From Acidimicrobiales bacterium (GTDB taxonomy: Bacteria > Actinomycetota > Acidimicrobiia > Acidimicrobiales > Aldehydirespiratoraceae): a DNA stretch of 64,000 nt. The translations under genes were made by a program, and so were the position numbers. Shown one piece after another: positions 26,754-37,188 of this stretch. The stretch is from the NCBI GenBank assembly GCA_033344915.1, contig JAWPML010000001.1, positions 3,738,263 through 3,802,262 of the forward strand. Reading direction: 5' to 3'. The notes beneath the pieces were generated by a model, which was not told where the DNA came from, did no database searches, and saw only the letters and a list, made by a program, of their open reading frames with translations. Each line of letters begins with the position of its first letter. The first letter of the stretch is position 1.

Positions 26754-28721
26754 ATGGCCTACCAGTCGCTCTATCGCAGGTACCGTCCGCAGAAGTTCTC
26801 GGAGATCCGCGGCCAGCATCATGTCGTGAGCGCGCTCCAGAACGCGGTCGCGAAGGGCGAGGTCGGCCACGCCTATCTGCTGCACGGACCGCGGGGCACG
26901 GGCAAGACCACCTCGGCCCGCGTGCTCGCGAAGGCGTTGAACTGCACCAACCTCGGCGACGATTCCGAGCCGTGCGGCGAGTGCGAGAGCTGTGTCGCGA
27001 TCGAGGAGGGACGCTCGTTCGATCTGCACGAGCTCGACGCGGCGTCGAACAACGGTGTCGAGGACATGCGTGACCTGTTGGCGAAGGTCAACCTCGGCAC
27101 GCCGGGCAACGCGAAGGTCTACATCCTCGACGAGGTCCACATGCTCACGCGGGGCGCGGAGAACGCCCTGCTGAAGACGCTCGAGGAGCCACCGGACCAC
27201 GTGATCTGGGTGCTGGCGACGACCGAGCCGCACAAGGTCGTGCAGACGATCCGCAGTCGCTGCCAGGTGTTCGAGCTGAGCCTGCTCGGGGCCGACGAGC
27301 TCACGGACCACGTCCGCTCTGTGATCGACGATGCCGGGCTCGATGTGGACGAGGCCGCGATCGACTATGTCGTGTCGGTGGGCGGCGGCTCGGTGCGCGA
27401 CACCTTGAGCGCACTCGATCGGGTCGTCGCGGCCGGCGGTGTCGTGGAGATCGACGAGTCCACGGATCTCCTGCTCTCGTCGCTCGCGGACCGCGACGCG
27501 ACGATCGCGCTGGCCTCGGTCGGCGATGCGATGGGTCGGGGCAAGGATCCCCGCACGATCGGTGAGGCGATCCTCGCCGGCCTGCGCGACGCTTTCCTCA
27601 CCGCGATGGGTTCGCCGCCACCCCGGCTCACGCCGAGCGAGACCCTGCGGGCGGAGGAGATCGCCGGACGGATGTCGCCCGCTGCGATGACGCGGGCCCT
27701 CGAGGTCATCGGCACAGCCCTCGTCGACATGCGTGCCGCGCCGGACCCGCGTGTCGACCTCGAGGTCGCCCTGGTCCGCCTCTGTCGCGCCGACGCGGAC
27801 CGCTCGGTCGACTCACTCGTCGAACGCGTCGACCAGCTCGAAGCGCGCCTCGCCGGCGGCCCCGCCCCCGCTCCTGCACAGACCCCGCCCCCCGCGCCCG
27901 CTCCGACCCCTGCGCCGGCCCCAGCGGCCGAACCGCGACCGGCACCCGTCGCCGCCGCGCCGGAACCCGAGGCCGCGCCCGAACCCGAACCCGAGCCGGC
28001 CCCGGCGAGCTCCACCGATGCGCTGCCGCCCCCGCCGTCCGTCGCGTCGAACGAACCCGACGAGCCGGAGGCGGACAAGTCGACGGGTCCCGCAGCGGCG
28101 GCGCGGGCGGCGCTCGCCGCGAAGATCGGACGGGCGGCGCCGGCGATCGAGTCGGTCACCGACCCGGATCCGCCGGCCGCACCCCCGCCGCCTCCCGTTG
28201 CCGCGGTCCCCGATCCGGTCGCCTCGCCCGAGTCGGCCGCGGAGTCCGCGGCCGAGGCGTTGCTCGCCCTACGCCCCGAGTCGCCGCGTGAGGTCGTGCA
28301 GTTGGCCGGTGAGCATCTGGGCATCGACAAGGACGTCGTGGTGGCCGCGGCCAACGAGCTGCTCGGCCCGGCCGACGGGCCGCGGTCGGCCGGTGAACTG
28401 GCCGGGCTCTGGCACGCCCTCGTCGGCCAGTACGCCGGCCCGGACGCGGCCGACGAGCCCCCGGCCGACGAGCCCGTGGCGCCGCCACCCGCACCGCTGG
28501 CCGCCGTGCCCGACCCGGAACCCGAGCCGGAGCCGCAGCCGGAGCCGCCGAGCGCGCCGGACGATCCGTTCGCCGATGCCGCGCCGCCGGTGTCCGACGA
28601 GGACATCGACCTCCACGATCTGGTCGATGCGCCGGCCCACACCGAACAGATCATCGAGAAGGTGACCGAGGCGTTCCCCGGTGCCGAACTCCACGTCCCC
28701 GAGGAGCCCCCGAATGAGTGA
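26754..28721 (+). CDS. dnaX: DNA polymerase III subunit gamma/tau
   Basis: A 655-residue clamp-loader ATPase. Walker A is GPRGTGKT (45-52), the zinc module Cys64, 74, 77, 80 lies in CTNLGDDSEPCGECESC, Walker B/DEAD-like is DEVHM (126-130) and the arginine finger SRC lies in TIRSRCQVFE. The C-terminal half is a Pro/Ala/Glu-rich linker (about 365-480) followed by two short conserved blocks, the tau extension that would contact DnaB and the polymerase. No poly-A or similar slippery site for a programmed frameshift is evident, so only tau is expected. TAGAGT at 26739-26744 may be a -10, 9 bases before ATG. First gene of dnaX-ybaB-recR. Confidence 0.97.
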   Translation: MAYQSLYRRYRPQKFSEIRGQHHVVSALQNAVAKGEVGHAYLLHGPRGTGKTTSARVLAKALNCTNLGDDSEPCGECESCVAIEEGRSFDLHELDAASNNGVEDMRDLLAKVNLGTPGNAKVYILDEVHMLTRGAENALLKTLEEPPDHVIWVLATTEPHKVVQTIRSRCQVFELSLLGADELTDHVRSVIDDAGLDVDEAAIDYVVSVGGGSVRDTLSALDRVVAAGGVVEIDESTDLLLSSLADRDATIALASVGDAMGRGKDPRTIGEAILAGLRDAFLTAMGSPPPRLTPSETLRAEEIAGRMSPAAMTRALEVIGTALVDMRAAPDPRVDLEVALVRLCRADADRSVDSLVERVDQLEARLAGGPAPAPAQTPPPAPAPTPAPAPAAEPRPAPVAAAPEPEAAPEPEPEPAPASSTDALPPPPSVASNEPDEPEADKSTGPAAAARAALAAKIGRAAPAIESVTDPDPPAAPPPPPVAAVPDPVASPESAAESAAEALLALRPESPREVVQLAGEHLGIDKDVVVAAANELLGPADGPRSAGELAGLWHALVGQYAGPDAADEPPADEPVAPPPAPLAAVPDPEPEPEPQPEPPSAPDDPFADAAPPVSDEDIDLHDLVDAPAHTEQIIEKVTEAFPGAELHVPEEPPNE

Positions 28722-29085
28722 CACACCCGACGACGCGAACCCGTTCGGCGGCACCGGCATGCCCGATCTCGGCGGTCTGCTCGAGTCGGCCCAGCAGATG
28801 ATGGCGAACGCTCAGGCGGCCGCGTCCGAGATCGTGGAGGGCGCCGCCGGCGGGGGCCTCGTGAAGGTCGAGGTCGACGGCCACTTCGCGTTTCACTCGG
28901 TGACCATCGATCCGTCGGCGATCGATCCCGATGACCCCCAGCTCCTCGAGGACCTCGTCCTCGCCGCGCTGCGCGACGCGGCGGCGAAGCTCCAGGCCGG
29001 TCAGTCCGGCGCGATGGGCGGCATGGACCTCGGCGGTCTCGACCTGGGCGGCCTCGGTGGCCTGCTCGGCGGCGGAGATCAGTGA
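28714..29085 (+). CDS. ybaB: YbaB/EbfC family nucleoid-associated protein
   Basis: A 123-residue YbaB protein: [40 protein letters not shown] and [20 protein letters not shown] are the family blocks. The N-terminal 20 residues ([10 protein letters not shown]) and the C-terminal glycine-leucine tail ([15 protein letters not shown]) are unusual additions. It overlaps dnaX by 8 bases and recR by 4, the conserved bacterial order. It binds DNA as a dimer, probably assisting replication or recombination. Confidence 0.95.
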
Positions 29086-29696
29086 GCTACTCCGCAACGG
29101 TCCAGGAGCTCATCGACCAACTCGGACGACTTCCCGGCATCGGACCGAAGTCGGCCCAGCGGGTCGCGTTCTACCTCCTGAAGGCCCCGCCGGAGGAGGC
29201 GATGCGCCTCAGCCGGGCGATCACGGAGGCGAAGGAGCGGGTGTCGTTCTGCGCCCGGTGCTTCAACCTCTCCGAAGGCGGTGACGAGTGTGCCATCTGT
29301 CGCGACCCGCGCCGCGAGGAGCGCCTCGTGTGTGTCGTGGAGGACAGCCAGGACATCGTGGCCGTCGAGCGGACCCAGGAGTTCCGCGGTCGGTACCACG
29401 TGCTCCAGGGCGCCTTCAGTCCGATCGACGGTGTCGGTGTCGAACAGCTCCGCGTGAAGGAGCTGATGACCCGCGTCGGCGAGGAGGACATCGAGGAGGT
29501 GATCGTGGCCACGAACCCGAACCTCGAGGGTGAGGCCACGGCGGCGCTGCTCGTGAAGTACCTCAAGCCGATGGGCGTGCGCGTCACCCGGATCGCCAGC
29601 GGGCTCCCGGTAGGCGGCGATCTCGAATACGCCGACGAGCTGACCCTCGGACGGGCGCTCGAGGGCCGGCAGGTCCTCGACGAGGGCGCCGGCTGA
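29082..29696 (+). CDS. recR: Recombination mediator RecR
   Basis: A 204-residue RecR: an N-terminal helix-hairpin-helix ([20 protein letters not shown]), the zinc finger Cys57, 60, 70, 73 (CARC and CAIC), and a TOPRIM domain with [17 protein letters not shown] and [15 protein letters not shown]. It loads RecA at gaps with RecO and RecF. Its GTG start overlaps the ybaB stop by 4 bases. Confidence 0.97.
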
Positions 29697-29721
29697 GCGG
29701 GCGAGCCGGGGATCGGGGGAT

Positions 29722-29750
29722 CGGAAAACGCACGAGGCGCCGTCTCGTGC
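29722..29750 (-). terminator. Intrinsic terminator on the minus strand after recR
   Basis: On the minus strand GCACGAG (29750-29744) and CTCGTGC (29736-29730) form a perfect 7-bp stem with loop ACGGCGC, followed by GTTTTCC. This is the best intrinsic terminator in the region and points leftward, toward the recR 3' end. Confidence 0.65.
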
Positions 29751-29875
29751 CTGCCGGGCGCGGGCGGTATGGATTGACCGGCAGATCCGAGACGACGCCT
29801 CGTGGTAGTCCACGTTGGTCGGGGGGAGGAAGGGGATTGGGTTGGCAATCCACGAACCGATCCGGCCGCTGTGTT
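29722..29875 (-). ncRNA. Candidate small RNA downstream of recR
   Basis: A strong minus-strand promoter, TTGTCA (29910-29905) with TAATGT (29887-29882) and a 17-base spacer, faces the terminator at 29722, and no convincing gene lies between. The predicted transcript of about 155 nt folds into hairpin GGATTG/CAATCC (29834-29851) and a stem CTGCCGG/CCGGCAG (29751-29784). A segment at 29788-29804 can pair 16 of 17 bases with 29731-29747, which would break the terminator hairpin. This competing fold suggests an attenuator or riboregulator. The stretch to 29988 otherwise holds nothing coding that I can support. Confidence 0.4.
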
Positions 29876-29881
29876 GCGGTT

Positions 29882-29910
29882 ACATTACGATAATGACAGC
29901 CCAATGACAA
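29882..29910 (-). promoter_or_regulatory. Promoter of the candidate small RNA
   Basis: TTGTCA and TAATGT on the minus strand are spaced 17 bases in the only AT-rich stretch of the region. No open reading frame with good codon use begins downstream, so it most likely drives the small RNA. Confidence 0.5.
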
Positions 29911-29988
29911 GCCCTGTTTGAACATTTCTTTTCGTCATGTTCGGGGACGCGTCGAAGCCGGCGGCCCATGCTCGGTTCGGCCGAGGTT

Positions 29989-30603
29989 TCAGGCGGACTT
30001 GCGCCCGGCTTCGTCGTCGTCTTCGGCCCACGCCACGTCGTCGTCCGGGTCCGCGACCGTCAGGGCGAGTTCGGCGGCCTGGTTCACGCCGACACGGGAG
30101 ACCGATGTCTGGATGTCGGCCATCGCGGCCTGGAGCCGGTCGTGGACGTCGCGCTCGGCGGCGAGGAGCCGGTCGAGTCGCTGCTGCGCCTCGTTGATGA
30201 CCTTGGTCGATCGTTGGCGGGCGTCCGCTTCGGCCGCCGAGAGGATCTCCTCCACCTGGGTGTCGGCCCCCTCGACGAGTTCGGCCGCGGCCTTCTCGCC
30301 CTCGGCGACGGTCTTGGCGGCAACGGCGGCGGCGTCCTTCGTGATCCGTTCGGCATCGCTGTCGGCGGCGGCGCGCACCGCGTCAGCGTCCTTGGTCGCC
30401 GACGCGATGAGTTCCTCACCACTCTTCACCGCCTGGTCGAGGACGGCACTCACCGACTCCGACACACTTTTCACGCCGTCGCGCTCGAGCGTGCGGATGC
30501 GTTCCGCGGCCTTGCGCAACAGCTCCCGCACGGCCTCGGGGTCGTAGCCCGTATCGGTGCTGTCGAACTCGGCCCGTTCGAGGTCTTCCGGCGTCAGTTC
30601 CAC
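29989..30603 (-). CDS. DivIVA-like coiled-coil protein
   Basis: A 204-residue protein. The first 40 residues (VELTPEDLERAEFDSTDTGY, DPEAVRELLRKAAERI) resemble a DivIVA/Wag31 N-terminal membrane-curvature domain, followed by a long Ala/Glu/Lys coiled coil (about 50-170) and an acidic tail. Proteins of this type mark poles or septa and recruit wall-synthesis enzymes. The GTG at 30603 is chosen: GATACT lies 8 bases before it as a likely -10, and the frame upstream is Arg-rich without conservation. It is divergent from the epimerase gene. Confidence 0.8.
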   Translation of the reverse strand: MELTPEDLERAEFDSTDTGYDPEAVRELLRKAAERIRTLERDGVKSVSESVSAVLDQAVKSGEELIASATKDADAVRAAADSDAERITKDAAAVAAKTVAEGEKAAAELVEGADTQVEEILSAAEADARQRSTKVINEAQQRLDRLLAAERDVHDRLQAAMADIQTSVSRVGVNQAAELALTVADPDDDVAWAEDDDEAGRKSA

Positions 30604-30706
30604 GCTGTCGAGTATCGCACCACGGCCGACTCGGGTGGTGGCAGACGAACGCGCACCGTGACCCCGCACCGGTTGTCGGACGCCCCACCCCCGGTTCTAC
30701 GATGCG

Positions 30707-31111
30707 ATGGTGCAGCTCACCGAGATCGACCACATCGCCATCGCCGTCCACGACCTCGAGGCCGCGATCGCCTACTACGGCGAAGCCTTCGGCGCGGAGG
30801 TCCACCATCGCGAGATCGTGGACTCCGACGGCGTCGAGGAGGCGTTGATCAAGGTCGCGGACAGCTACATCCAGCTGACCGCCGCCACCCGTGACGACTC
30901 GCCGATCGCCAAGTATCTCGAGAAGCGGGGCGAGGGTCTGCACCACGTGGGCTATCGGGTCGACGACTGCGCGGCCGCGCTCGCCCGGATGGTCGAGGCC
31001 GGCGCCACCCCGATCGACCAGGCCCCCCGGCCGGGATCGCGGGGCACCACCGTCGCCTTCGTCCACCCCAAGGGCAGCTTCGGCACGCTGATCGAGCTCG
31101 TCCAGGAGTAG
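30707..31111 (+). CDS. mce: Methylmalonyl-CoA epimerase
   Basis: A 134-residue VOC enzyme that interconverts (S)- and (R)-methylmalonyl-CoA in propionate metabolism. IDHIAIAVHDLEAAIAYYGE is the family opening, EALIKVADSYIQLTAATRDD and KRGEGLHHVGYRVDDCAAAL carry the metal-ligand Gln/His/Glu set, and HPKGSFGTLIELVQ is the usual ending. It fits with the acyl-CoA carboxylase genes at 43.2 kb, which would make methylmalonyl-CoA. The next gene on the other strand ends 9 bases away. Confidence 0.93.
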   Translation: MVQLTEIDHIAIAVHDLEAAIAYYGEAFGAEVHHREIVDSDGVEEALIKVADSYIQLTAATRDDSPIAKYLEKRGEGLHHVGYRVDDCAAALARMVEAGATPIDQAPRPGSRGTTVAFVHPKGSFGTLIELVQE

Positions 31112-31120
31112 GGCGCCGGG

Positions 31121-33496
31121 TCAGCCCTCGAGGGTGACGGTTCCCTCCGGCGTGATGAGGGTGGCCGTCAATCCCGGCGGGCCGGTGGCCACGTCGATCG
31201 GCACGGCGTACTCCCGCAGCCGCGATCCGATCGCCGGGTCGTCGTGGCGGAGGTCGAGCGACAGCAGCGAGCAGCCCTGCGCCGACGTCGCCGCCGGGGT
31301 GATGCCGGGCCACTCGATCAGGAAGGGCAGGACGCCGTCGCCGTCCGCGGGCGGAACGGTCAGCCGCCACTGGAGGACGGCGCCCTGTGGCGTCGTGCGT
31401 TGCATCGCGAACGCGTCGCCGGGGTCGACACCGCGCGTCCGGGCCCACGCGATCCACACGTCGATCGACGCGACGCCGGCGGCCCAGGTGACGAGCCGAG
31501 GCTGGTCGAGGTCGTCGATACCGAACGGGCGGGACGCCGGCGGCTCGGGCTGGCCCGCATCGGGTCCGACGACCTCGAGGTAGGTGGACCCGCCGAGGGC
31601 GAGCAGGACATTGCGTGAGCCCATCCCGTCGTGGCGCCCCCCGTCGGTCGGCTCGACCCCCCAGGTCTGACGGATCTCGGCCAGCGTCGCGTCGAGGTCG
31701 GGTGTCGCGTAGACGAGATGGTCGATCGTCGCCTCGAGTCGCGCCGCCCGGTTCACGACGGGCTCCTTCGGCCGCCCACCCAGATCGACGGCGACCAGAC
31801 CGCGCGCCTCCGCCAGGGGGTCGGCCCGATCGATCTTGGCGTTGCGGCCGTCGATCAGTTGCAGGTGGCCCCGCACCCCGGCCTTCGGGCGGGCGATCCG
31901 ATCCGGGAAGCCGGTGGCGAGCACCGCCCCCATCGCGTTCGGGTCGAGCGCGTCCGGATCGATGTCGGTCGTCGCGATGCCCTGGCGCCGGGCGAGATCC
32001 GCGGCGCGGTCGCGTACCTGACGCAGTGCCCGCCCGTCGGCCGCCGGGTGGTGACGGTCGCGGTCGAGGACGAGGGCCAACCGCTCGTGCAGGTCGACGG
32101 GGAGTTCGGTCGGGCGGCCCCGGAGCACGTCGCGGTCCTCGAGCAGGGCCGTCAACAGGCAGGCGAGCCACGGATCGCGGGACTCCACCACCATGCGGGC
32201 GAGACGGGGATGGGCGGGCACCCGGGCCATCCAGAGGCCGCGCTCGGTCGGGGTGCCGTCGTCGTCGAGCGCGCCGAGCCGCTGGAGCAGAGCCACCCCG
32301 TCGGCCCACGCCTGCTCGCCGGGAGGATCGAGGAAGGGCACCTCCGCCGGGTCGGTGATGCCGCGCTGGGCGAGATCCAGGACGAGATCGGACAGCTCCA
32401 CCTCCGCGATCGCCGGGGGAAGGAACGGCGGTCGGGCCGCGTGCTCCATCTTCGACCAGAGCCGGAAGGCGATGCCGGGGCCCGTCCGCCCGGCCCGTCC
32501 GGCCCGCTGGTCCGCCGAGGCGCGCGACGTGGACACCGTGTGCAGCGCGGTCATGCCGGTGCCGGAGTCGTGGCGGGGGACGCGGGCGAGTCCGCTGTCG
32601 ACGACCGAGCCGATCCCCTCCACCGTCAGGCTCGTCTCCGCCAGGTCGGTGGCCAGGACGATGCGCCGGTTCGCCCGCGGAAAAAGGGCGGCGTCCTGTT
32701 CGGCCGCGGGCAGCGAGCCGTGGAGCGGGAGAACGGCCGGACCGTCGGGCCCGAGCACGTTGTGCAGCTCGCGTTCGGCGCCGCGGATCTCGCCGACGCC
32801 GGGCAGGAACACGAGCACATCGTCGTGGCCCCGTAGCGCCTCCTGCACGACGGACACGACCGCGGGAACGATCGGCGCCCGCCGTTTGCGCGGCCGCCAC
32901 CGCACCTCGATCGGGTGGGTCCGCCCGCCGGAGGTGATGATCGGCGCGGGCCCCGCGTCGCCGCCGAGCAACGCGGCGACGGCGGCACCGTCGAGCGTCG
33001 CGGACATGACGAGCAGCCGGGCGCGCAGTCCGTGGTGGAGCCGTGAGTGCAGAGCGAGCGCCAGCCCGGTGTCGCCAGGGAGCGAGCGTTCGTGGAACTC
33101 GTCGAACACGACGAGGCCGACGCCGTGCAGGGTCGCGTCGTTCACCAACCGCGCGGTGAGGACGCCCTCGGTCACCACCTCGATGCGGGTGGTCGGGCCG
33201 ACCCGTCGGTCGTCCCTGGTCACCCAGCCGACCGTCTGGCCCGGCTCCTCACCGAGCATCGCCGCCATGCGCCGGGCGGCCGCCCGGGCCGCGACGCGGC
33301 GGGGTTCGAGCAGGACGATCCGGTCGGTCCCGAGCCACGGCTCGTCGAGCAGGCGGAGCGGGACGAGCGTGGTCTTGCCGGCACCCGGCTCGGCCTGGAG
33401 GACGGCATGGCCCGCGCCGGCCAGTGCGTCGCGGAGCTCGGGAACGACCTCTTCGACCGGCAGGTCGGTGGTGGGAAGCGGCATCGGCTGCATCAT
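31121..33496 (-). CDS. HrpB-like ATP-dependent helicase fused to a VOC (glyoxalase-3-like) domain
   Basis: A 791-residue fusion. Residues 1 to about 580 are a DExH helicase of the HrpB type: Walker A AEPGAGKTT (35-43), DEFH (132-135), SAT (165-167), the ATDLAETSLTVEG segment with SADQRAGRAGR, then the helical bundle and OB-like part ending FPDRIARPKAGVRGHL. The usual HrpB C-terminal domain is absent. From about residue 589 (IDHLVYATPDLDATLAEI) to the end it is a glyoxalase-3-like VOC domain with LLALGGSTYLEVVGPD. The join is in frame with no stop. A GTG at 31756 could give the VOC domain alone. I take this as a genuine fusion of two neighbouring genes; a sequencing deletion is the alternative. 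Confidence 0.85.
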   Translation of the reverse strand: MMQPMPLPTTDLPVEEVVPELRDALAGAGHAVLQAEPGAGKTTLVPLRLLDEPWLGTDRIVLLEPRRVAARAAARRMAAMLGEEPGQTVGWVTRDDRRVGPTTRIEVVTEGVLTARLVNDATLHGVGLVVFDEFHERSLPGDTGLALALHSRLHHGLRARLLVMSATLDGAAVAALLGGDAGPAPIITSGGRTHPIEVRWRPRKRRAPIVPAVVSVVQEALRGHDDVLVFLPGVGEIRGAERELHNVLGPDGPAVLPLHGSLPAAEQDAALFPRANRRIVLATDLAETSLTVEGIGSVVDSGLARVPRHDSGTGMTALHTVSTSRASADQRAGRAGRTGPGIAFRLWSKMEHAARPPFLPPAIAEVELSDLVLDLAQRGITDPAEVPFLDPPGEQAWADGVALLQRLGALDDDGTPTERGLWMARVPAHPRLARMVVESRDPWLACLLTALLEDRDVLRGRPTELPVDLHERLALVLDRDRHHPAADGRALRQVRDRAADLARRQGIATTDIDPDALDPNAMGAVLATGFPDRIARPKAGVRGHLQLIDGRNAKIDRADPLAEARGLVAVDLGGRPKEPVVNRAARLEATIDHLVYATPDLDATLAEIRQTWGVEPTDGGRHDGMGSRNVLLALGGSTYLEVVGPDAGQPEPPASRPFGIDDLDQPRLVTWAAGVASIDVWIAWARTRGVDPGDAFAMQRTTPQGAVLQWRLTVPPADGDGVLPFLIEWPGITPAATSAQGCSLLSLDLRHDDPAIGSRLREYAVPIDVATGPPGLTATLITPEGTVTLEG

Positions 33497-33549
33497 GCCG
33501 CGTGAGCGCGGCGGGTGTGCGAGGCTCCGGCGATGGAGGATGTCCCCGC

Positions 33550-34422
33550 ATGAAGGTCCATCTCGTCGACGGCACCTACGAGCTGTTTCGCTACCACTAT
33601 TCGCCGGCCAACAAGGACACGCGGCACGGCGCTCAGCGGGGCGTGCTGAGCACGGTGCTCGACCTCGTCGCCGACGGGGCCACGCACATCGGGATCGCCA
33701 CCGACACGGTGATCGAGTCGTTCCGCAACGATCTGTACGACGGCTACAAGGACGGCAGCGGTGTCGAGCCGGACCTGCTCGCCCAGTTCCCCGAGGTCGA
33801 GGAACTGCTCGAACTCGCCGGCTTCGCGGTGTGGCCGCAGATCACCCACGAGGCCGACGACGGCATGGCGGCCGGCGCCGCGATGGCCGCGGCCGACGAC
33901 CGGGTCGAACAGGTGATCATCTGCACGCCCGACAAGGACCTCGCCCAGTGCGTGACGGCCGACGGTCGCGTGATCCAGCTCGATCGGCGTCGCGAGATCA
34001 TCTACGACCGGGCTGGTGTGATCGAGAAGTTCGGCGTTCCGCCCGAGTCGATTCCGGACTATCTCGGCGTGGTCGGCGACACCGCCGATGGCTTCCCCGG
34101 GCTCCCGGGCTGGGGGGCGAAGTCCGCCGCGAAGATCCTCTCGCGGTTCGGCCACATCGACGAGGTGCCGTTCGACGTGGCGGAATGGGACGGCGTCGAT
34201 GTGCGCGGCGCGGCGAAGCTGGCGATGACCCTGCGCGAGAACTTCGAGGACGCCTTGCTGTTCCGCCGGATCGCCACCGTCGATCTCGACGCACCGGTGA
34301 GCGCGAAGGTGGACGACATGATCTGGAAGGGGCCGAGCGCGGGCTTCGACGAGCGTTGTGCCGCGCTCGGTGCCGAACGGGTGGCCAAGCGGGCGCACGA
34401 GTTGTTCTGGAAGTACGCCTGA
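33550..34422 (+). CDS. 5'-3' exonuclease (flap endonuclease family)
   Basis: A 290-residue stand-alone PIN/FEN nuclease similar to the 5' nuclease domain of DNA polymerase I. MKVHLVDGTYELFRYHYSP opens it, ICTPDKDLAQCVTADGRVIQ carries the acidic metal ligands, and GDTADGFPGLPGWGAKSAAK is the helix-three-turn-helix DNA clamp. It would remove RNA primers or flaps. GGAGGA lies 9 bases before the ATG at 33550, which decides that start over upstream in-frame codons. It overlaps the next gene by one base. Confidence 0.92.
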   Translation: MKVHLVDGTYELFRYHYSPANKDTRHGAQRGVLSTVLDLVADGATHIGIATDTVIESFRNDLYDGYKDGSGVEPDLLAQFPEVEELLELAGFAVWPQITHEADDGMAAGAAMAAADDRVEQVIICTPDKDLAQCVTADGRVIQLDRRREIIYDRAGVIEKFGVPPESIPDYLGVVGDTADGFPGLPGWGAKSAAKILSRFGHIDEVPFDVAEWDGVDVRGAAKLAMTLRENFEDALLFRRIATVDLDAPVSAKVDDMIWKGPSAGFDERCAALGAERVAKRAHELFWKYA

Positions 34423-35048
34423 TGGATCAGGACGACGCCGTCGCGCTCGCCGCCGAGTTCGACCCGGAACTCGCCGAACGGATCCGGTTCATCTACGAGC
34501 TCGACAAGCTGAAGAGCGAACTCCGCCAGACGCTGCTGGCCGACGGGAGCCGCCGGGAGAACTCCGGCGAGCACTCCTGGCATCTCGCGATGCTGGCGAT
34601 GGTGATGGCGCCGCACGCGAAGGAGCCTCTCGACATCGACCGGGCGATCCGCATCCTCCTCGTCCACGACATCGTCGAGATCGACGCGGGGGACGTCGAC
34701 ATCTACGACTACGAGGCGCGCAAGGCGAAGGAGGCGGAGGAGATCGCCGCCGCCGACCGGATCTTCGGCCTGCTCCCGGAACCGGAGTCCTCGGAGCTGC
34801 GGGCGCTGTGGGACGAGTACGAGGCCCGTGAGACGCCGGAGGCTCGCTTCGCCTACGCCTGTGATCGGTTGCAGCCGTTCCTGCTCAACCTCGCGATCGG
34901 CGGCGAGTCGTGGACCCGGCGGGGCGTGACCGGATCCGAGGTCAAGGCGATCAACTCGAAGATGGCGGACGGCCTCGACGGTGTCTGGGAGGTCGTCGAG
35001 AAGCTCATCGACCGCGCCGTGGACGAAGGCACGATCCTCGACCCCTGA
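34422..35048 (+). CDS. HD-domain phosphohydrolase (YfbR/HDDC2-like)
   Basis: A 208-residue HD protein: NSGEHSWHLAMLAMVMA supplies His51, VHDIVEIDAGD the His82-Asp83 pair and further acids, and FAYACDRLQPFLLNL the final Asp. The family includes 5'-deoxynucleotidases that act on dNMPs. Placement one base after a flap exonuclease gene suggests shared nucleotide metabolism. Its TGA begins palindromic element R6. Confidence 0.88.
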   Translation: MDQDDAVALAAEFDPELAERIRFIYELDKLKSELRQTLLADGSRRENSGEHSWHLAMLAMVMAPHAKEPLDIDRAIRILLVHDIVEIDAGDVDIYDYEARKAKEAEEIAAADRIFGLLPEPESSELRALWDEYEARETPEARFAYACDRLQPFLLNLAIGGESWTRRGVTGSEVKAINSKMADGLDGVWEVVEKLIDRAVDEGTILDP

Positions 35049-35082
35049 GTTGGGACAGGGGGTCAGACACCTGTCCCAACTC
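35047..35082 (-). repeat. TCTGACCCC palindromic element, copy R6
   Basis: Perfect 13-bp arms GAGTTGGGACAGG (35047-35059) and CCTGTCCCAACTC (35070-35082). Same core and inner arm as R4, but the outer AA/TT pairs of R4 are TT/AA here, so pairing is kept. It fills the gap between two convergent genes. Confidence 0.9.
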
Positions 35083-35091
35083 CGCCCCGGT

Positions 35092-35580
35092 TCAGCCCAG
35101 CGGTCGGTCGGCGACGAGTACGCCGTCGAGATCCGCGCAGATCCAGTCGCCGGGACGGATCGTCGCGCCGCCGAACGTCACCGCCACGTCGCGGTCGCCG
35201 AGTCCGCGTTTCTCGGTCTTGCGGGGGTTCGTGCCGAGCGCATGGATGGCGAGGTCGGTCGTCGCCAGGATCGCGGCGTCGCGCACCGCGCCATAGACGA
35301 GGATGCCGGACCAGCCGTTGGCGCTCGCCTTCGCCGCGAGTTGATCGCCCACCACGGCTCGACGCCGCGACCCGCCGGCATCGACGACGAGGACCTTGCC
35401 GTGTCCGTCCTCTGCGACGGCTTCGCGTACGAGCGAGTTGTCCTCGAAGATCTTCAGCGTGACCGCCTCGCCGGCCATCCGATCCCGACCGCCGAGCGAA
35501 CGGAAGTCGTTGTCGAGCACCGTGACCTCGTCGTCGTGGTCGTCGCACAGGTCGGCCGTTGCCGGAAGATCAGCGTCCAT
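35092..35580 (-). CDS. RraA-like protein (regulator of RNase E / HMG aldolase family)
   Basis: A 162-residue protein of the RraA/demethylmenaquinone-methyltransferase-like fold: VLVVDAGGSRRRAVVGDQLA, AKASANGWSGILVYGAVRD and RPGDWICADLDGVLVAD are the family blocks. The active-site GGSxRRAxxGD and GxxRD patterns suit 4-hydroxy-4-methyl-2-oxoglutarate aldolase or oxaloacetate decarboxylase activity rather than RNase E binding. It lies between palindromes R6 and R7. Confidence 0.9.
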   Translation of the reverse strand: MDADLPATADLCDDHDDEVTVLDNDFRSLGGRDRMAGEAVTLKIFEDNSLVREAVAEDGHGKVLVVDAGGSRRRAVVGDQLAAKASANGWSGILVYGAVRDAAILATTDLAIHALGTNPRKTEKRGLGDRDVAVTFGGATIRPGDWICADLDGVLVADRPLG

Positions 35581-35584
35581 CCCC

Positions 35585-35622
35585 CGAGTTTGGACACGGG
35601 GTCAGACACCTGTCCAAACTCG
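35585..35622 (-). repeat. TCTGACCCC palindromic element, copy R7
   Basis: Arms CGAGTTTGGACA (35585-35596) and TGTCCAAACTCG (35611-35622) are perfect; the loop on the minus strand includes TCTGACCCC. It sits 13 bases after the stop of the lipoprotein gene and 4 bases before the start of the rraA-like gene. Confidence 0.88.
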
Positions 35623-35635
35623 CCATGTCCGAACG

Positions 35636-36115
35636 TCAGTCGCAGATGATCGCGTCCTCGGTGTCGAGGAGGTAGCGGTCGGTCTGGTCGCCGCGAACGA
35701 GGTAGACGTGTCGCTCGTCGGTCGGGTCGAGCCACAACACCTCGTCGCCTCGCCGCCAGCCGGAGTCCGTGAGGTCGTCGATCACGTCGGCGGTGCGGAA
35801 CGTGCGGTTGCGAACCTGCTGGTCGACGTAGGCGAGCAGGTTGACCGGGTCCCAGTGGTACGCCCCGAGGTCACCGATGACGATCTCGTCGACGAGCTCC
35901 CAGCCGCACGTCGAATCACCGGCCCGGGAGAAGATCTCGTGCGGCGGGACCGGACACCCGCGCTCGTCGGTCCAGACGTCCACGCCGTCCGCGGTCACGA
36001 CCTCGGGGCACGCGGCGGTCGATTCGTCGGCGACCGTGCACGCGCCGCCGAAGAGCGCAGCCAGTGCCAACGCCAGCATGGGAGCGGCGGAGATGGACCG
36101 CATCCGGCGGCTCAC
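35636..36115 (-). CDS. Small lipoprotein of unknown function
   Basis: A 159-residue exported protein. The signal peptide SRRMRSISAAPMLALALAAL ends with GGAC (Cys26) and is followed by five further cysteines (ACPEV, RGCPV, STCGWEL, IICD), so a disulfide-stabilised domain is likely. I do not recognise it. The GTG at 36115 is used since it overlaps the ligase stop by 4 bases (GTGA), which implies coupling; ATG at 36103 is the alternative. Confidence 0.65.
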   Translation of the reverse strand: MSRRMRSISAAPMLALALAALFGGACTVADESTAACPEVVTADGVDVWTDERGCPVPPHEIFSRAGDSTCGWELVDEIVIGDLGAYHWDPVNLLAYVDQQVRNRTFRTADVIDDLTDSGWRRGDEVLWLDPTDERHVYLVRGDQTDRYLLDTEDAIICD

Positions 36116-37188
36116 CCGTCGGCGCTGAGGACTTCGCTGATGCCGACCGGCGCGGCGACCTCGAGCTGGTCGTACGCACACGACGCGGCGTCGCGGTCCG
36201 GTCGCCAACGCACGAACCGCGTCGTCCCGCGGAATCGTCCGTTCAGCACGGCTTCGTACTTGACCTCGGCGACGAGCTCGCAGGTGAGCGGCACCCACAT
36301 CGCCGTGTCGCGACCGGCGCTCCAGCGGTTCGGCCCGCCGGGCATCAGCCCCTCCTCGTGTGCCTCCGGGTTCATCCATTCCGACCACGGGTGGTCGGCC
36401 GGATCGTCGATGATGAAGGGCGCGAGTGTCTCGACCAGCTCCGCTCGCAGGCTCGCCTTGAACGACGAGGCGACGCCCATGTGTTGCAGGCGACCCTCCT
36501 CGTCGTGCAGTCCGACGAGCATCGAACCGACGCCCTCGCCGTCCTTGTGCAGCCGATAGCCGGCGATGACGACGTCGGCCGTGCGCGTGTGCTTGACCTT
36601 GTACTGGACGCGCTTGTTCGGCTGGTAGGTGCCGTCGCGGGGCTTGGCGATCAGCCCGTCGAGCCCCGCCCCCTCGAAGCGGACGTACCAGTCCTGCGCG
36701 ATCTCCCGGTCGAGTGTCGACGGCACGAGATGGATCGGCGCGGCGAACGACGCGCCGAGCGCCTCGAGGATCTGGCGCCGATCGCGGAACGGCTCATCGG
36801 TGAGATCCGTGTCGTTCACGGCGAGCACGTCGAACGCCACGAACTCCGCGGGCGTCTCCTCGGCGAGGCGGTTGACCCGTGACTCGGCGGGGTGGATCCG
36901 TTGCTGGAGCGCGTCGAATCCGAGGTGGTCCTCGACCGTCACGATGATCTCGCCGTCGACGACGCAGCGATCGGGGAGACAGTCGCGCAGCGGTTGGAGG
37001 AGCTCGGGGAAGTAGCGGGTCAGTGGTTTCTCGTTGCGTGACCCGAGGTGGACCTCGTCGCCGTCACGGAACACGATGCAGCGGAAGCCGTCCCACTTCG
37101 GCTCGAACGCGAGGTCGCCGATCTCGGGGATGCCGTCGACGGCCTTCGCCAGCATCGGCTTGACGGGCGGTGCAACCGGGAGGTCCAT
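36112..37188 (-). CDS. ATP-dependent DNA ligase (LigC type)
   Basis: A 358-residue ligase. The adenylation motif EPKWDGFRCIVFRD has the nucleophile Lys31 (KxDG), with DGEIIV, LDGLIAKPRDGTY and QYKVKHTRTADVVIAGYRL as motifs III, IV and V. The C-terminal OB domain follows. There is no NHEJ polymerase or nuclease domain, matching mycobacterial LigC rather than LigD. It would act in short-patch or base-excision repair. It is divergent from epoxide hydrolase and coupled to a small lipoprotein gene. Confidence 0.93.
   Translation of the reverse strand: MDLPVAPPVKPMLAKAVDGIPEIGDLAFEPKWDGFRCIVFRDGDEVHLGSRNEKPLTRYFPELLQPLRDCLPDRCVVDGEIIVTVEDHLGFDALQQRIHPAESRVNRLAEETPAEFVAFDVLAVNDTDLTDEPFRDRRQILEALGASFAAPIHLVPSTLDREIAQDWYVRFEGAGLDGLIAKPRDGTYQPNKRVQYKVKHTRTADVVIAGYRLHKDGEGVGSMLVGLHDEEGRLQHMGVASSFKASLRAELVETLAPFIIDDPADHPWSEWMNPEAHEEGLMPGGPNRWSAGRDTAMWVPLTCELVAEVKYEAVLNGRFRGTTRFVRWRPDRDAASCAYDQLEVAAPVGISEVLSADG

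Follow-up and report, generated by a model that had tools for sequence, protein, structure and literature searches.

An HrpB-type DEAH helicase carrying a VOC domain instead of HrpB_C in one actinobacterial family

We find a gene in which an HrpB-type DEAH helicase runs in one frame into a complete Glyoxalase_3 domain of the VOC superfamily. It lies in a 64,000-nt stretch (hereafter, the window) of an Acidimicrobiales bacterium (GCA_033344915.1, JAWPML010000001.1) whose genome is a single contig of 4.48 Mb. The gene is present end to end in 21 of the 51 genomes of the host's family, Aldehydirespiratoraceae ("the family" below): in the host and in 20 others at 61-84% identity. Because the connector and the HrpB_C region are both gone from the helicase, the sequences point to the replacement of a tail rather than to the joining of neighboring genes. 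The two parts are of known kinds, and their combination in one helicase was not found in the literature searched, which lay mostly outside subscription journals.

Results

Architecture of the fused gene

The fused gene is a single open frame of 791 codons, read from the ATG at 33496 (the earliest start codon of the frame) to the stop at 31121, with no internal stop. The first-pass annotation gave these coordinates correctly but named no strand; the gene is on the minus strand. Its product consists of a helicase (aa 1-586) and an unbroken Glyoxalase_3/VOC domain (aa 587-791), each with the features collected in Table 1. Pfam places DEAD at 26-171, Helicase_C at 221-339, and Glyoxalase_3 at 591-755 (E = 9.1e-37), so the first-pass annotation was right that a glyoxalase-3-like domain follows complete, without stop or frame change. 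The PF13468 score is 127.2 bits against a gathering threshold of 25.1, and all 21 fused proteins match this profile. Glyoxalase_4, in contrast, reaches 18.6 bits on the fused protein, under its cut-off of 27, and 85.6 bits on the neighboring epimerase-like gene. Motor motifs I, II, III, and VI are present, as seen in the sequence and in invariant alignment columns. The names winged helix, helical bundle, and OB-fold for aa 351-586 follow DEAH helicase structures.

The HrpB model TIGR01970 (NCBIfam) aligns its positions 1-572 of 825 to aa 12-589 of the fused protein, at 552.2 bits against a cut-off of 546.15. Automatic annotation will thus probably read 'HrpB', and the architecture is easily overlooked. 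The full-length model NF008662 (PRK11664) gives 443.8 bits, short of its cut-off of 1053, with the order's intact HrpBs left unscored as a control. We file the gene as an HrpB-derived DEAH helicase lacking HrpB_C, not as HrpB proper.

Table 1. Fused gene, its parts, and the genes on either side, in window positions (aa, residues of the fused protein).
Feature	Position	Strand	Basis
Fused gene, HrpB-type DEAH helicase + VOC, 791 aa	31121..33496	-	Translation, Pfam, TIGR01970; end to end in 21/51 family genomes
RecA1 + RecA2 motor domains (aa 1-350); AEPGAGKTT, DEFH, SAT, QRAGRAGR	32447..33496	-	Pfam DEAD, Helicase_C
Helicase auxiliary part (aa 351-586): winged helix, helical bundle, OB-fold (predicted strands 534-587)	31739..32446	-	TIGR01970 match, AF2 strands
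VOC/Glyoxalase_3 domain (aa 587-791) + stop codon	31121..31738	-	PF13468, AF2 model, 3p8a match
In-frame GTG, codon 581, proposed internal start; unconserved	31754..31756	-	Start codon in 7/21 fused genes
IEWPGIT (aa 727-733), at the place of standalone IDWG...H before invariant Pro 734	31298..31318	-	Alignment; His missing
5'-3' exonuclease family gene, divergent, 53 bp from the fused gene's start	33550..34422	+	Pfam 5_3_exonuc
Methylmalonyl-CoA-epimerase-like VOC gene, convergent, other VOC family	30707..31111	+	Glyoxalase_4 top match

Loss of the C-terminal region and the junction

HrpB_C (PF08482) is found in none of the 21 fused proteins, as against all 31 unfused HrpBs scanned. The Pfam connector family CON_HrpB is matched in 4 of these 31, behind the point at which the fused helicase stops. 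The host's second HrpB is ordinary, with ~45% identity to the fused gene and HrpB_C at 680-812. The fused helicase stops at about the end of the OB-fold, ahead of the connector region that precedes HrpB_C; the earlier statement that it ends where the HrpB C-terminal domain begins was thus nearly exact.

Across the fused proteins, the OB part runs continuously into 'LE..(I/V/L)DH' in the alignment. The full-length AF2 model predicts the last OB strand at 578-587 and the first VOC strand at 590-597, with a pLDDT of 70 for residues 571-580, 89 for 581-590, and 94 for 591-600. Taken as a whole, this model has low confidence (mean pLDDT 74, with values below 50 over much of 192-366, in the second RecA domain), so docking of the VOC domain on the helicase is unproved.

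Both halves are under purifying selection: values of dN/dS lie between 0.04 and 0.22 (Nei-Gojobori, eight pairs of relatives) in each of the three segments, motor, auxiliary part, and VOC. Sixty-four columns are at least 97% invariant among 61 unfused HrpBs (31 scanned for HrpB_C and 30 unscanned), and 56 of them are kept in at least 20 of the 21 fused proteins. The eight departing columns are 106, 226, 335, 362, 367, 378, 379, and 538. Position 378 is Trp in 61/61 unfused HrpBs, Arg in 21/21 fused proteins, and Leu in both HrpAs compared. Positions 378 and 538 would, on this pattern, face the lost C-terminal region.

Distribution

The same continuous frame is found in all 21 family genomes. 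In addition, the gene lies in two contig pieces in G040 and is interrupted by a contig end in G037, while in G025 and G018 only 5' helicase pieces (131 and 57 residues) are present; each lies next to the exonuclease gene at a contig end, and the VOC part is unseen. It is missing from 25 of the 51 genomes. The fused assemblies carry many different isolate and project names, and a junction shared by so many separate isolates and projects rules out chance or a read-level frameshift. We therefore regard an assembly or annotation artefact at the junction as practically negligible, given that the same junction recurs end to end in 21 genomes, mostly contigs of separately titled assemblies.

A search of genome contigs with the VOC part only, from which the best 80 of 280 confirmed places were taken, led to the same genes. 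The top 20 have an HrpB helicase upstream in the same frame (one interrupted by a contig end), and around the remaining 60 no HrpB helicase was detected at E 1e-10 within a flank of up to 5 kb. Most of the 20 are titled Acidimicrobiales, Acidimicrobiia, or Acidimicrobiaceae; some go no deeper than Actinomycetes or Actinomycetota, and one is a Candidatus Microthrix. These 20 loci come from the same assemblies as the family survey and are a second route to them, not a second sample.

Outside the family, no full-length match was found among 198 genomes of the order (E 1e-60, up to five candidates per genome scored; six family genomes among the matches listed) or among 396 genomes of the phylum (E 1e-90, up to two candidates per genome scored; two family genomes among the matches listed). 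In the class (296 genomes, E 1e-25), VOC relatives occur in 27 genomes, and the 24 outside the family have frames of 164-344 aa. Plasmids yielded 74 matching records, none with one place covering >80% of the query. In the host genome, PF13468 matches the fused gene, the neighboring epimerase-like gene, and one place below cut-off. The first-pass annotation knew of no common HrpB-VOC architecture. That the fusion is genuine and unusual is supported by its conservation in 21 genomes, its single clade in both trees described below, and its occurrence in one family only: the proposed search for other proteins with both domains gave 20 further family genomes and none outside the family in the genomes searched. 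Relatives with separate ORFs at the junction, which that annotation had named as the refuting case, were not seen.

Origin of the fused gene

In a helicase-core tree of 84 sequences (quick method), the 21 fused helicases group as a single clade (SH-aLRT 100), placed among unfused HrpBs of the order's other families, and the family's canonical HrpBs (14 rows) form a separate clade (SH-aLRT 100). The sister of the fused clade is poorly supported (65), and the unfused L192 and L201 are long-branched. This tree leaves out L191 (internal stop) and L199 (fragment) and keeps L188, which is cut at a contig end; the contig-cut L024, L025, L028, and L030 on the fused side and L054 on the unfused side were left out of the alignments. 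An AU test rejects the grouping of the fused genes with the family's canonical HrpBs (p-AU 0.0007), and with it the idea that the fused gene arose by duplication of this HrpB within the family. Built from 99 rows by the quick method, the VOC tree likewise contains one fused clade (99) and no clear donor. A single fused clade in both trees implies that one HrpB lineage was altered while the other stayed canonical. Most simply, this alteration would have happened once.

The earlier suggestion of a fusion of two neighboring genes gained no support. Among 20 unfused hrpB loci of other families, a related VOC gene was found in none (E 1e-8; flank up to ~9 kb, a few with <2 kb on one side). None of the 60 standalone VOC loci has an HrpB helicase (E 1e-10) in its flank of up to 5 kb either, and on these loci we set this origin aside.

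Canonical HrpB accompanies the whole or partial fused gene in 19 of 25 family genomes by hand count. The six genomes without it (G018, G028, G030, G033, G039, and G042) are 66-94% complete, and one has a possible HrpB fragment. With 6 of 25 lacking canonical HrpB, a division of labor between the two proteins is not strict. Only G043 has canonical HrpB alone (86% complete; the exonuclease gene was likewise not found). Matches to neither were seen in 25 of the 51 family genomes, involving genera g2, g3, g6, and g10, in which both seem absent together.

The locus and its empty site

The window holds a conserved block at 26754-37188 made up of dnaX, ybaB, recR, a DivIVA-like gene, the epimerase-like gene, the fused gene, the exonuclease gene, an HD-domain gene, an RraA-like gene, and an ATP-dependent DNA ligase gene. 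Across 20 fused loci (L060-L079), the exonuclease gene adjoins the fused gene in 18, the epimerase gene in 14, and recR in 18. Contig ends account for misses in L062 (recR), L070 and L078 (exonuclease), and L072 (epimerase and recR), and in L073, L075, L077, L078, and L079 the epimerase gene is absent from the interval that separates the fused gene from recR. The nucleic-acid genes among these neighbors suggest, but do not prove, that the fused protein does nucleic-acid work.

Twelve family genomes were tested for both neighbors. Eight of them (G004, G010, G011, G013, G017, G045, G048, and G049) have the epimerase and exonuclease genes adjoining, 15-42 bp apart, with no fused gene between them; these are all of the tested genomes that have both neighbors and lack the fusion. 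The site there is cleanly empty. A tree built on up to three neighbor genes places g10, a genus without the fusion, within the group of the window's genus (100/94), and thus the fused gene was lost at least in g10. The row for g6 in this tree has less than half of the columns, and L242 was left out as part of the same contig as L167. G018, which has a 5' piece beside its exonuclease gene, is the most basal family row and is long-branched. If that piece is part of a fused gene, the simpler reading adds losses in g3 and in g2 together with g6. A gene that is missing from 25 of 51 genomes and has been lost at least once is dispensable.

Two further arrangements were seen at related places. At three g10 loci, recR and the epimerase, exonuclease, and ligase genes lie close together, and the DivIVA, HD, and RraA genes are not there. 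In L141 (G090), an unfused hrpB from another family sits close to where the fused gene would be, ~4 kb from recR-ybaB-dnaX, but its relative orientation is reversed.

The VOC domain and its pocket

The AF2 model of the VOC domain is confident (mean pLDDT 95.8). Its best solved match is 3p8a (Z 16.1, rmsd 3.2, 195 aligned residues), a protein of unknown function, and methylmalonyl-CoA epimerases come next (Z ~11) over the first 145 residues. Nine residues, D592, H593, H622, N629, Y639, E641, R700, W710, and W729, are invariant in 21/21 fused and 60/60 standalone rows, an invariance partly built in near 593 and 641, where the stretches served as search patterns of the VOC-only search. H593 and E641 align with first-module residues of methylmalonyl-CoA epimerase, which serve there as metal ligands.

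The fused clade also differs from its relatives. A His precedes P734 in 60/60 standalone rows and in 0/21 fused rows, and position 728 is Glu in 21/21 fused rows against Asp in 58/60 standalone rows. A762 is changed to Glu throughout the clade, and invariance of W612, W681, and W684 is confined to the fused rows. Among 18 further standalone rows (17 from a class profile search, plus L162), 16 have HP, one has NP, and one, whose frame holds a stop, has neither; the IDWG...HP motif does not appear in the alignment of the distant 3p8a. Since the His of HP is thus also missing in 3p8a and in 2 of 18 standalone rows, changed chemistry is not proved. The comparison points to a site that has been remodeled and not plainly destroyed. 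L162 (G026:C52) is itself a standalone Glyoxalase_3 gene with ~48% identity and the HP motif kept, in a genome of the window's genus that also has the fused gene.

We also considered the neighbors of standalone VOC genes as a clue to function, and set them aside for want of a widely shared neighborhood. Of the 14 largest neighbor clusters listed, we take the biggest (41 loci) to consist of the VOC proteins; each of the rest has 5-7 loci and is confined to related organisms, e.g., Nonomuraea or Streptomyces.

Discussion

Relation to known proteins

The fused protein shares its RecA1, RecA2, winged helix, helical bundle, and OB parts with HrpB (TIGR01970; solved as 6eud and 6heg), and by phmmer its aa 10-601 match 5-569 of the 812 residues of 6eud. 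The crystal structure of E. coli HrpB has reportedly been solved. Unlike HrpB, the fused protein has no connector or HrpB_C, has a VOC domain instead, and has Arg in place of W378. With standalone Glyoxalase_3 proteins (PF13468; 3p8a), it has in common the complete domain, the fold, and the invariant pocket residues of the standalone rows. These differ in having no HrpB helicase in frame or flank (60/60 other loci) and in the HP His, which the fused clade is without. HrpA has a similar DEAH motor, with ~37-43% identity over the motor only, but its frames are mostly >1200 aa with another C-terminal part. Like the fused protein, HrpA is without HrpB_C. The neighboring methylmalonyl-CoA epimerase (30707-31111) belongs to the same VOC superfamily and has weak first-module similarity to the fused VOC domain, but it represents a different family.

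A possible role for the fused protein

In DEAH helicases, the OB-fold guides nucleic acid. We tentatively favor the view that the fused protein is a stable, tail-swapped DEAH helicase whose VOC module binds a ligand and thereby gates or places the motor. Domain scans and trees support a history in which, early in the family, one of two HrpB lineages would have lost the connector and HrpB_C region, and the same lineage would have gained a whole Glyoxalase_3 VOC protein directly after the OB-fold. The motor would still use NTP to move on or remodel RNA, or possibly DNA. The VOC domain, with almost no linker to the OB-fold, may occupy the place of HrpB_C. There it could bind a small metabolite, a metal complex, or a partner, and so gate or place the motor, a role other than that of an ordinary detoxifying glyoxalase. 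Most of these genomes also have a separate canonical HrpB, which probably retains the original HrpB function. In other bacteria, VOC proteins occur beside regulators as ligand-binding partners, according to one report (PMC7641849). A more doubtful version is a metabolite-gated RNA helicase. Here the VOC domain, in the place of the native C-terminal region, would be a built-in receptor that makes the remodeling of RNA or DNA respond to a small molecule, with compounds of the reactive carbonyl or acyl type as possible candidates.

Less likely than this is that the exchange was structural only, with the VOC domain serving as a passive cap or dimerization module for the OB-fold after the loss of HrpB_C, and with no ligand role. 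The very short predicted OB-VOC junction, the helicase changes at W378 and R538, and the loss of the His of all 60 standalone relatives speak for such a cap. A cap, however, has no need of the pocket-type residues H593, H622, N629, E641, and R700, which are invariant in 21/21 fused proteins. Such a pocket could instead belong to a bifunctional protein, in which a metal enzyme of the glyoxalase/epimerase superfamily is brought to nucleic acid, for example to carbonyl-damaged nucleotides. This accords with the alignment of H593 and E641 to first-module positions of the epimerase and with neighbors such as the exonuclease, recR, dnaX, and ligase genes. Yet the fused clade has lost the His and changed the nearby Asp to Glu, and standalone VOC relatives showed no widely shared neighborhood; we consider an enzyme of this kind improbable. 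Marginally more improbable still is a neutral joining, in which both parts work independently as before and are only translated together. Most family features are indeed retained in both domains, but HrpB_C is missing in exchange, the helicase and the VOC domain alike show clade-specific changes, and a separate start codon is unconserved.

The fused gene also bears on HrpB at large. It is a natural variant without HrpB_C whose motor is still under selection, and it shows that this region is replaceable. The fusion also marks residues that are probably coupled to the HrpB_C region, W378 and R538. It further offers a ligand-binding handle toward what an HrpB-type motor does; a 2016 paper (PMC4804567) gives the function of E. 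coli HrpB as not described. That such a hybrid has been kept in one actinobacterial family suggests a motor controlled by a small molecule.

Other reading frames at the fused gene

The first-pass annotation had also proposed that the VOC part could be made separately from the GTG at 31756. The codon exists, and AGGAG lies upstream of it in the window species. Conserved use is unlikely: its place holds a start codon in only 7 of the 21 fused genes, the nearest relatives being among those without one, and in two of the 21 the stretch from codon 532 to codon 601 offers no in-frame start codon. We therefore reject the internal start as a conserved feature; weak initiation may occur in the window species. 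On the opposite strand, a 951-codon open frame (32193-35048, +) crosses the fused gene in antisense and extends into the real HD-domain gene; it is probably a high-GC artefact.
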